Of a stretch of DNA of 22,079 nt, positions 1,923-3,969 are shown piece by piece. A model generated the notes under the pieces. It was not told the origin of the DNA. It saw nothing but the letters and a program-made list of their open reading frames with translations, and ran no database searches. The stretch's first letter is position 1. Each line of letters begins with the position of its first letter. Source of the DNA: a bacterium (GTDB lineage Bacteria; T1Sed10-126). The translations under genes and the position numbers were made by a program. The stretch spans positions 1-22,079 of the forward strand of contig PWHN01000071.1 in the NCBI GenBank assembly GCA_003554945.1. The letters run 5' to 3'.

Positions 1923-1957
1923 ACTTTCTAACTTTCCCACTTGCCAACTTTTCAACT
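1923..1957. repeat. Short ACTTTCNN 8-bp tandem array
   Basis: Four units (ACTTTCTA, ACTTTCCC, ACTTGCCA, ACTTTTCA) followed by ACT. It is followed by AACAAG, the same hexamer that separates the array from tRNA-His at 2322-2327, but no tRNA follows here. It may be a remnant of an array-plus-tRNA unit. Confidence 0.75.
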
Positions 1958-1986: not shown

Positions 1987-2228
1987 AGTGTCCGGTCACA
2001 GTCGAAAATGTGACTGCTTCTGGTTGTCATTTCCGCGGAAGCGGAAATCCAGTGGCGTTGAATTTATGATGGTCTAAAGTCAACGTCACTGGATTGCCCA
2101 ATCAAGTTGGGCAATGACGATCTTAGGATCTGGATTGCCCGGTTGATACCCAGATCAAGTCCGGGCACGATGGCCTATGGGCAATGATGGCAAGGGGCAA
2201 CCCGAAAATTCAATTGTGACTAAGCACT
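1987..2228. mobile_element. 242-bp MITE-like element with terminal inverted repeats
   Basis: The ends are inverted copies: AGTG-N4-GTCACA at 1987-2000 and TGTGAC-N4-CACT at 2215-2228. The inside is a series of smaller palindromes, including GTCACA/TGTGAC, a TTTCCGC/GCGGAAA hairpin, CCAGTG..CACTGG and TTGCCCAA..TTGGGCAA, and no coding frame. It sits within an ACTTTCNN array, which resumes directly at its right end. No clear target-site duplication was found, so its mobility is inferred from structure alone. Confidence 0.5.
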
Positions 2229-2265
2229 TTCCAACTTTCCAACTTTCCCACTTTCCAACTTTCTC
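2226..2265. repeat. ACTTTCNN 8-bp tandem array
   Basis: Five units (ACTTTCCA twice, ACTTTCCC, ACTTTCCA, ACTTTCTC) starting in the last bases of the 242-bp element. No tRNA follows this one. Confidence 0.8.
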
Positions 2266-2294
2266 ACCGAAAGGTTTTGACTCTGCGGTTTCCA

Positions 2295-2321
2295 ACTTTC
2301 CAACTTTCACACTTTCACACT
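2295..2321. repeat. ACTTTCNN array next to tRNA-His
   Basis: Three units (ACTTTCCA, ACTTTCAC, ACTTTCAC) plus a final ACT, ending six bases from the 3' end of tRNA-His. Its left flank, GCGGTTTCCA, resembles the GGTTT flank of the other arrays. Confidence 0.85.
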
Positions 2322-2327
2322 AACAAG

Positions 2328-2401
2328 GGTGGCCGACCGGATTTGAACCGGCGACAACTCGGACCACAACCGAGTGCTCTACCTGCTGAGCTACGGCCAC
2401 C
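2328..2401 (-). tRNA. tRNA-His (GTG anticodon)
   Basis: The minus strand folds into a full cloverleaf. The acceptor stem is GTGGCCG with CGGCCAC. The anticodon stem CTCGG/CCGAG encloses the loop TTGTGGT, giving anticodon GTG. The T arm contains GGTTCAAATCC. An extra G at position -1 (2401) faces a C discriminator (2328), the hallmark of tRNA-His. No CCA is encoded. It may share a transcript with tRNA-Pro, 166 bp upstream. Confidence 0.96.
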
Positions 2402-2439
2402 ATAGAGGGGCTCCAATTGGTTTTGACTTTTTGGTTTCA

Positions 2440-2562
2440 ACTTTCCCACTTTCTAACTTTCACACTTTCTAACTTTCACACTTTCTAACTTTCTAACTTT
2501 CTAACTTTCACACTTTCTAACTTTCACACTTTCTAACTTTCACACTTTCTAACTTTCACACT
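2440..2562. repeat. 15-unit ACTTTCNN tandem array next to tRNA-Pro
   Basis: Fifteen uninterrupted 8-bp units of ACTTTC plus two variable bases (mostly TA or AC in alternation; CC in the first), then a final ACT at 2560-2562. It fills the spacer between tRNA-His and tRNA-Pro and ends five bases from the 3' end of tRNA-Pro. On the transcribed minus strand it reads AGT-NNGAAAGT repeats immediately after the tRNA. Confidence 0.95.
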
Positions 2563-2567
2563 ACCAA

Positions 2568-2643
2568 TCGGGCAGCCCGGATTTGAACCGGGGATCTCCT
2601 GCTCCCAAAGCAGGCGCGCTAAGCCAAACTACGCCACTGCCCG
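2568..2643 (-). tRNA. tRNA-Pro (TGG anticodon)
   Basis: The minus strand gives a full cloverleaf. The acceptor stem CGGGCAG pairs with CTGCCCG and the discriminator is A. The anticodon stem CCTGC/GCAGG encloses the loop TTTGGGA, giving anticodon TGG. The T arm reads GGTTCAAATCC. CCA is not encoded. A degenerate copy of its 5' half lies at 3781-3820. Confidence 0.96.
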
Positions 2644-2669
2644 CCTGTTCAACTTTAATCAGGGCTTAA

Positions 2670-2698
2670 ATTATATCACGTGCAATCAAAATTTTCGA
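2670..2698 (-). promoter_or_regulatory. Candidate promoter for tRNA-Pro
   Basis: On the minus strand a perfect -10 box TATAAT (2675-2670) lies 17 bases from a fair -35 box TCGAAA (2698-2693). The tRNA 5' end is 26 bases beyond the -10 box, which leaves a short leader. tRNA-His downstream has no obvious promoter of its own and may depend on this one. Confidence 0.55.
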
Positions 2699-2757
2699 GG
2701 CTCATTTTTGCCCGGCAAAACCTACCGCTCACCCGTCATTGCGAACTTGTTACCCGA

Positions 2758-3747
2758 TCAATCTTTTTTTCGTGCTGCTTGCTGTATCTCATTAACCAAA
2801 CCCTGTATTTCATCTTTTGGCGGTATTTTATCTTCGGGAAAAGGCCGTTGCCAGACGTATTCAGCATCTGGCTCTCCCTTACCGTAACCCAGCAGATTAT
2901 TAAATTGATTGGCTTCGGTATGATAAAAAATCCCGACTTGCCAGGGCTCCCAATCCTCCCACATGCCGTGGCGAGCGTCAAACTTTTCTTCCTGTCGTTT
3001 TAAAGTCTCCTGCTTGTAATCAAGATTAAACCAATCCAGAAGCTCCTCACCGTTCTCCACAAAATTTGCAGTGAAATTTTCATATCGGCTCCAGTAAATA
3101 TGGCGTTTGAATTTCTTAATGGCGGCCAGATGTTGCTTACTCCAACTAATCACTCGAATCACGGCATTTAAAAAGCGCTCGTCTAACTCTTCACCGAGAA
3201 AAGGAAAACTCGTGTGAGGCCAGTGATCAACAACCGGATCTGAAAAAGAGTCAACCATGTCCCTGAGGTCCCGACACCAGAACATAAATTGTGATTCAGG
3301 AAACAACTCGACCAGGTGGGGAGCAATTATAGAATCCAGGTGATGGTAAAACCAAAATTCATCGTGCACAGCTAAAATAAGACGCCCGAGAGGAATTTCC
3401 GTCAGCCCAAGCTTTTGCTGAATAACCGGACGATCTGCCTCTTTTGATGTCCCTATGTTTAATTTTTCCTCTGACTCCTGCTGCCCCGACGCCTGAAAGA
3501 GCTTGAAAGGTTCCTTGTACACGTTATCAAAAAATTCACTAATGAAATACTTACCGAACCATGAGGAACCGGAGCGGGGAAAACCAAAAGCCCATATTGG
3601 TTGTGAGCTACTGGCAAGTTCCTGTAATTTTTTTAAAAAATCCGCAGGAGCCGTTACTCGTTCCAGCTCCCTCCGGCGTTCGTCAGAAATACCATTTAAT
3701 ATCCGCTCAGGAAATTCGGCCAGAATAGGATTGTTTGTTTTTACCAA
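2758..3747 (-). CDS. Sulfotransferase family protein
   Basis: A soluble PAPS-dependent sulfotransferase, predicted to move a sulfuryl group from 3'-phosphoadenylylsulfate to an unknown acceptor. From the preferred start (329 aa) the 5'-phosphosulfate loop FGFPRSGSSWFGKYF lies near residues 54-68, and the 3'-phosphate motif CRDLRDMVDSF near 158-168. The best ribosome binding site, GGAGGG (3762-3757), sits before TTG at 3747; the frame stays open upstream to another TTG at 3768, but without a site. No signal peptide or membrane segment is seen. It is the only protein gene between tRNA-Pro and tRNA-Arg, bordered upstream by a tRNA-Pro fragment, which suggests a small inserted segment. No PAPS-synthesis genes are in the window, so the acceptor remains unknown. 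Confidence 0.85.
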   Translation of the reverse strand: MVKTNNPILAEFPERILNGISDERRRELERVTAPADFLKKLQELASSSQPIWAFGFPRSGSSWFGKYFISEFFDNVYKEPFKLFQASGQQESEEKLNIGTSKEADRPVIQQKLGLTEIPLGRLILAVHDEFWFYHHLDSIIAPHLVELFPESQFMFWCRDLRDMVDSFSDPVVDHWPHTSFPFLGEELDERFLNAVIRVISWSKQHLAAIKKFKRHIYWSRYENFTANFVENGEELLDWFNLDYKQETLKRQEEKFDARHGMWEDWEPWQVGIFYHTEANQFNNLLGYGKGEPDAEYVWQRPFPEDKIPPKDEIQGLVNEIQQAARKKD

Positions 3748-3780
3748 ATATTTTCGCCCTCCGATCAAATTTCAACTCAT

Positions 3781-3820
3781 TCCCGCACAGACCCGCTGAT
3801 CCAAATTACGCCACTGCCTG
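3781..3820 (-). pseudogene. Degenerate 5' half of tRNA-Pro
   Basis: Bases 3794-3820 match 2617-2643 (acceptor 5' strand and D arm of tRNA-Pro) at 23 of 27 positions in the same orientation. A weaker match continues to a TCCC matching the anticodon loop. The anticodon arm no longer pairs well and no T arm is recognisable, so it cannot be a working tRNA. Together with the intact tRNA-Pro it brackets the sulfotransferase gene. Confidence 0.75.
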
Positions 3821-3855
3821 TCTATCCCGAACTTGCTTTTGATTTTACGGGTTTA

Positions 3856-3890
3856 ACTTTCCAACTTTCACACTTTCCCACTTTCACACT
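3856..3890. repeat. ACTTTCNN array next to tRNA-Arg
   Basis: Four 8-bp units (ACTTTCCA, ACTTTCAC, ACTTTCCC, ACTTTCAC) plus a final ACT, ending four bases from the 3' end of tRNA-Arg. This is the same phase and position seen at tRNA-His and tRNA-Pro. Confidence 0.9.
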
Positions 3891-3894
3891 CAAA

Positions 3895-3969
3895 TACGCC
3901 CGGCAGGATTCGAACCTGCGACAAGCGGCTTAGAAGGCCGCTGCTCTGTCCAGACTGAGCTACGGGCGT
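3895..3969 (-). tRNA. tRNA-Arg (TCT anticodon)
   Basis: The minus strand gives a full cloverleaf. The acceptor stem ACGCCCG pairs with CGGGCGT and the discriminator is A. The anticodon stem GCGGC/GCCGC encloses the loop CTTCTAA, giving anticodon TCT. The T arm reads GGTTCGAATCC. CCA is not encoded. Confidence 0.95.

Follow-up and report, generated by a model that had tools for sequence, protein, structure and literature searches.

In the window, a stretch of 22,079 nt that makes up contig 21 of a 2.2 Mb MAG (G000) of an uncultured bacterium with 41 tRNA genes, three tRNA genes on the minus strand (His, Pro and Arg) are each followed by a tandem array of octamers (Table 1). In plus-strand reading the array is (ACTTTCNN)n; it is present after all three tRNAs, 4–5 nt after ACTTTCNNACT, and NNACT stands after each series of units. 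The initial annotation had proposed that the same repeat and the same junction follow all three genes with 3, 15 and 4 units, and this is borne out: the gap between ACT and the tRNA is 5 nt for His, 5 nt for Pro and 4 nt for Arg with ARAGORN ends, that of His being 6 nt if the Rfam end is taken. The two arrays without a tRNA that it had placed at 1923 and 2226 are likewise real, and the former has the end ACTAACAAG in common with the His array.

Table 1. Octamer arrays, tRNA genes and Y1 transposase genes; positions are those of the window unless a locus is named.
Feature	Position	Strand	Repeat units proper	Basis
Degenerate octamer array, 4 units, terminating in ACTAACAAG, without neighbouring tRNA	1923..1957	+		
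Octamer array, 5 units, 63 nt away from tRNA-His	2226..2263	+		
His element, conserved distal (gene-far) flank GGTTTTGACTCTGCGGTTTCCA	2268..2294	+		trailer alignment
His octamer array, 3 units + ACT; ACTTTC strand directed into tRNA-His 3' end	2295..2321	+	2295-2316 (3)	
tRNA-His (GTG)	2327..2400	-		ARAGORN ends
Pro element, conserved distal flank GGTTTTGACTTTTTGGTTTCA	2417..2439	+		trailer alignment
Pro octamer array, 15 units + ACT; 16-bp higher-order TA/AC alternation	2440..2562	+	2440-2557 (15)	
tRNA-Pro (TGG)	2568..2643	-		ARAGORN ends
Arg element, conserved distal flank CTTTTGATTTTACGGGTTTA	3834..3855	+		trailer alignment
Arg octamer array, 4 units + ACT, adjoining tRNA-Arg 3' end	3856..3890	+	3856-3885 (4)	
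tRNA-Arg (TCT)	3895..3969	-		ARAGORN ends
C16 Y1 transposase (PF01797 + DnaA_C), recG-like and glgB-like neighbours; inverted repeats = palindrome + octamers	L048 16436-17375			
Four further Y1 transposase genes, TIRtron-like, every one between inverted repeats of its own (25-30 bp)	L235, L236, L238, L239			

When the three tRNA trailers are aligned, the elements agree in the TTnnAGT head beside the tRNA and in the tail on the distal side, GTTGAAACCGnAAAGTCAAAACC (also given as GTT(G)GAAACCGnAAAGTCAAAACC), and the number of units is the sole difference between them. A far-side flank had been noted for two arrays; the flank is real, but it is present in all three window elements rather than in two. 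Because both ends are common to the three elements and only the unit number varies, they are better described as copies of a discrete dispersed element of variable length than as three independent local repeats.

Other repeats are found in the same region. A dispersed repeat of about 250 bp occupies positions 1980-2220, between two octamer arrays, and pieces 72–93% similar to it lie in L058 and L045. The 5' part of tRNA-Pro (2611-2646) has a 36-nt, 81% copy at 3788-3823, 1177 bp off; the two are separated by an ORF resembling sulfotransferases (2758-3747, weak Pfam match), where the sister genus has an 87-nt spacer only.

For a genome-wide census we read 970 kb of DNA, taking in all tRNAs and the arrays found by pattern search, and called genes with a home-made gene finder based on a simple hexamer model; all CDS borders given here rest on these calls. 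About 51 octamer arrays were mapped. Period 8 and its multiples predominate among the intergenic tandem repeats of the genome, with higher-order repeats of 16, 32, 45, 61 and 65 bp among the arrays. Across some 256 units, the variable NN is predominantly AC, TA or CC, and is AA in 15. Most often (31 of 51 arrays) the right end reads NNACT with A or C as the next base, which makes the phase of the junction a property of the array and not of the tRNA. On the distal side, GGTTT occurs within 16 nt in 15 of the 51 arrays, as against 1.6% of random intergenic sites. The whole element, comprising distal flank, octamers and ACT, is tandemly duplicated at a spacing of 45–65 bp before tRNA-Tyr (L037 5580-5800) and before a Shine-Dalgarno sequence (L041 906-1069). 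A hairpin stands beside 14 of 51 arrays compared with 9% of random sites, mostly as weak 4-bp stems. The arrays have no replication-strand bias (20/48), no directional ageing of their units was found, and a search of viral contigs for the array gave no match.

Arrays adjoin several kinds of gene border. Seven lie 2–11 nt from the 3' end of a tRNA (Thr-TGT, Leu-TAG, Thr-CGT, Leu-CAA, His, Pro and Arg-TCT); of the 51, seven adjoin CDS stops and another seven start codons, immediately before the Shine-Dalgarno sequence. One adjoins the 5' end of a tRNA (Tyr), and a terminator and 5S rRNA are also adjoined. In every one of these cases the ACTTTC strand is directed into the gene, at start or stop alike, and both the permutations and the list of borders place the beginning of the purine-rich strand at the nearest ORF border whatever the direction of the ORF. 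As a null model, each array was re-placed and re-oriented randomly inside its own gap in 2000 permutations. Of the 51 arrays, 22 contact a border with the gene-proximal (right) end, where 6.8 are expected (0/2000 permutations), and two with the opposite (left) end, where 6.7 are expected; for roughly half of the arrays there is no called border within 25 nt.

The interpretation given in the initial annotation stands in part: the enrichment is supported, a mechanism tied to tRNA 3' ends as such is not. Enrichment is clear: seven right ends fall 2–11 nt away from the 3' end of a tRNA, where chance placement predicts 1.2, with none of the 2000 permutations reaching seven, and among 3' ends with a spacer of at least 60 nt an array is present at 6 of 34 tRNAs and 7 of 570 CDSs (odds ratio 17, p = 3e-5). 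However, these arrays also meet non-tRNA borders, with identical end and polarity, and the expectation that most tRNA genes would carry the array fails, 34 of 41 being without this octamer array. tRNA 3' ends are a favoured but non-exclusive border for arrays. Since the same arrays touch starts and stops of ordinary genes, they look more like a scattered intergenic repeat element at gene borders, with tRNA ends over-represented, than like a tRNA-processing device.

Behind about eight additional tRNAs stand arrays of other 7/8-mer families, again in the same sense. The heptamer family TTAGTTCAGCT(GAAAGCT)n starts directly after Ile, Met, two Ser and Ala tRNAs (L054, L055, L057, L067, L052), (AGTTNNAA)n follows two Arg tRNAs and (NTAGTTGG)n a Gly tRNA, while (ACTAGCNN)nACT stands before a Val tRNA. 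A distal motif similar to TTGATTTTACGGTTTT lies ahead of members of several of these families.

The sister-genus genome (G001) carries the same His-Pro-Arg tRNA cluster, with array-free spacers of 11 and 87 nt. Its His-Pro spacer of 11 nt compares with 167 nt in G000, and the array is therefore dispensable. One conserved CDS pair (87% identity) has an array in G000 in place of the roughly 20 nt of ordinary spacer seen in the sister genus; its Shine-Dalgarno sequence is retained. In other phyla the octamer is present in at least 104 contigs, mostly with one uniform NN. Of 66 arrays there, 26 have the right end near an ORF border and 4 the left end. Part of this excess is expected, and the 3'-end counts are biased, since stop codons occur in the GAAAGT strand; 11 of the 19 3'-end contacts lie clearly outside the array. 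Among 40 other array-bearing genomes, a single tRNA-linked case was seen, an array about 20–25 nt downstream of Arg-CCG in a Latescibacterota MAG (L228).

Five Y1 (IS200-like) genes are present in the genome, with products of about 290–320 aa. In the two products that were scanned against Pfam and NCBIfam, the C-terminus is DnaA_C-like, and both match the model for REP-associated tyrosine transposases at a score below its cut-off. All five genes are bordered by inverted repeats of 25–30 bp, and these repeats form intergenic families with between 2 and about 11 copies in the DNA read. Judged by these features, the five resident Y1 genes match the TIRtrons/TIRYT (Di Nocera et al. 2013, PMC3733652; subclass 2.1 of PMC6006769), which likewise combine Y1 transposases with a DnaA_C-like C-terminus and flanking inverted repeats that form dispersed intergenic families. 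Here the octamer is part of one such family: the TIR of the C16 gene is TTACCTCGGAGGT + TGAAAGTTTGAAAGTT, that is, TTACCTCGGAGGT followed by two GAAAGTTT octamers. Its two copies adjoin the borders of recG-like and glgB-like genes (names read from translations) with array polarity, and a solitary copy is continued by a mixed array of 7 units (L117). Unlike TIRtron TIRs, however, most arrays lack a TIR head, the full C16 head being found in about 5 of 51, most of these with two units, and growth into octamer arrays is not part of the published descriptions of TIRs. In the sister genus, related TIRYT inverted repeats lie from about 10–12 nt to 64 nt after the 3' end of tRNA-Val (L090 1437-1488).

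Several known repeats resemble the octamer arrays. In Xanthomonas and Nostoc, GGGNATC heptamers are reported to lie nearer to the 5' neighbouring ORF, whichever way that ORF runs; their G-rich strand is the sense strand behind stop codons and the antisense strand ahead of start codons (Rehm et al. 2015, PMC4692102). Like them, our arrays are intergenic tandem repeats of 7–8 bp units in variable number, whose purine-rich strand starts at the border of the adjacent ORF in either ORF orientation and often overlaps the stop codon. They differ in the fixed NNACT end, in their presence at tRNA 3' ends, and in the unit GAAAGTNN, which has no recurring run of three G and hence is not the quadruplex-forming unit of the Xanthomonas/Nostoc subtype. 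The TAACTGA repeats of marine Beggiatoaceae, Cyanobacteria and Bacteroidetes are oriented toward start codons (MacGregor 2015, PMC4679880); they too are short tandem units in one orientation a few nt from start codons, patchily distributed over phyla. However, their unit is different and they are mostly found at start codons, mostly without a Shine-Dalgarno sequence, whereas the octamer arrays are often at 3' ends and beside tRNAs. tRNAs are nowhere mentioned by Rehm et al. (PMC4692102), and the sole tRNA mention in MacGregor (PMC4679880) is the name of a tRNA ligase gene; neither reports tRNA ends. GTAG REP/RAYT elements are similarly extragenic, often less than 20 bp from an ORF 3' end, and may supply the TAG stop. 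Assignment to GTAG REPs, which are palindromes of 20–40 bp tagged GTAG, was rejected since the arrays are not palindromic, have no stable fold, have TTnnAGT heads and lack the GTAG tag.

Two conserved ends, a fixed polarity, enrichment at borders and tRNA 3' ends, and absence of the array from conserved borders of the sister genus characterize these repeats. We propose, with about even confidence, that the arrays are a dispersed, polar, border-seeking intergenic repeat element that grows by slippage. The element would have a gene-proximal end ...NNACT(A/C), TT..AGT in outward reading; a body of octamer units, NNGAAAGT in the same reading; and, in about one third of the copies, a GGTTT/TTTACGG flank on the distal side. 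Copies may be placed, or may survive, with the ACT end against a border, whether a stop codon, an RNA 3' end or a Shine-Dalgarno leader, and the unit number would then be altered by slippage or unequal exchange, as the higher-order repeats suggest. A tRNA-specific function would not be needed, tRNA 3' ends being simply a favoured border. More tentatively, dispersal could be due to the resident Y1 (HUH) transposases of the TIRYT type, since one TIR carries two octamer units and a TIRYT element of the sister genus stands some 10 nt downstream of the 3' end of a tRNA. The further idea that such transposases seed short repeat tails at gene borders, chiefly at tRNA 3' ends, and that these tails grow into polar SSR arrays is speculative and rather unlikely. 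Few units are of the TIR type (NN=AA; 15 of about 256), and the repeat may thus have been acquired by the transposase instead of being dispersed by it. The dispersed-element model also has against it that the arrays show neither directional ageing of units nor replication-strand bias, and that about half of them stand away from called borders. A primase start site (CTA/CTC) was also considered as the source of the ACT end.

Slippage alone could produce arrays anywhere in spacers, with selection purging octamers that invade genes, so that the fixed end would simply mark the start of functional sequence. The higher-order multiples of the unit, and the similar, usually homogeneous octamers in many phyla, are consistent with such pure simple-sequence growth. 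It is nevertheless unlikely, as it leaves the one-ended contact with genes (22 versus 2), the phase of the NNACT end and the common distal flanks unexplained. Alternatively, the array might be a functional border signal, its unstructured (ACUUUC)n RNA serving for Rho loading against incoming transcription or, before starts, as a leader that binds S1 or the ribosome. The ACTTTC strand is indeed G-free in its body with no predicted structure (MFE 0) and is directed into the gene at every adjoined border, and S1 and similar proteins have been proposed for the TAACTGA repeats (PMC4679880). However, at 5' positions a Rho-loading array would sit in the gene's own leader and be harmful, at 3' positions the sense RNA is GAAAGU, and arrays are absent from the same borders of the sister genus and from most genes here; we therefore consider a border signal rather improbable.

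A device specific to tRNA 3' ends, either a processing trailer or an integrative element that targets them, is a reading that the initial annotation proposed, and the array at 2–11 nt in 7 of 41 tRNAs, 17-fold over CDS stops, speaks for it. The identical junction at CDS stops, Shine-Dalgarno leaders, a terminator, 5S rRNA and a tRNA 5' end mostly refutes it, however, although the enrichment at tRNA 3' ends stands. The processing trailer in particular finds no backing: array RNA has no stable fold on either strand, no terminator-like site overlaps the arrays, a GC-rich hairpin with a U tract after the tRNA was not found, and the His and Pro genes of the sister genus are array-free. The unstructured trailer thus gives no sign of a processing or termination structure. 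An integrative element would need a duplicated tRNA 3' end; none was found in the window region, where only the 5' part of tRNA-Pro is duplicated (3788-3823). Such a device is accordingly very improbable.

The polarity rule of gene-flanking 7–8 bp repeats is now seen in a poorly known bacterial lineage, and the same octamer follows it across several phyla. tRNA 3' ends are added as a favoured site, and a candidate mobiliser is offered, so that the origin of the repeat becomes testable. If single-strand TIRYT transposases do seed the arrays, this would explain why unrelated 7- and 8-mer repeats in several phyla point into the gene.

Contig ends of the assembly overlap by 121–125 bp at 99–100% identity in two cases (L101/L046 and L117/L061), suggesting that C22 and C14, and C120 and C112, are neighbours.
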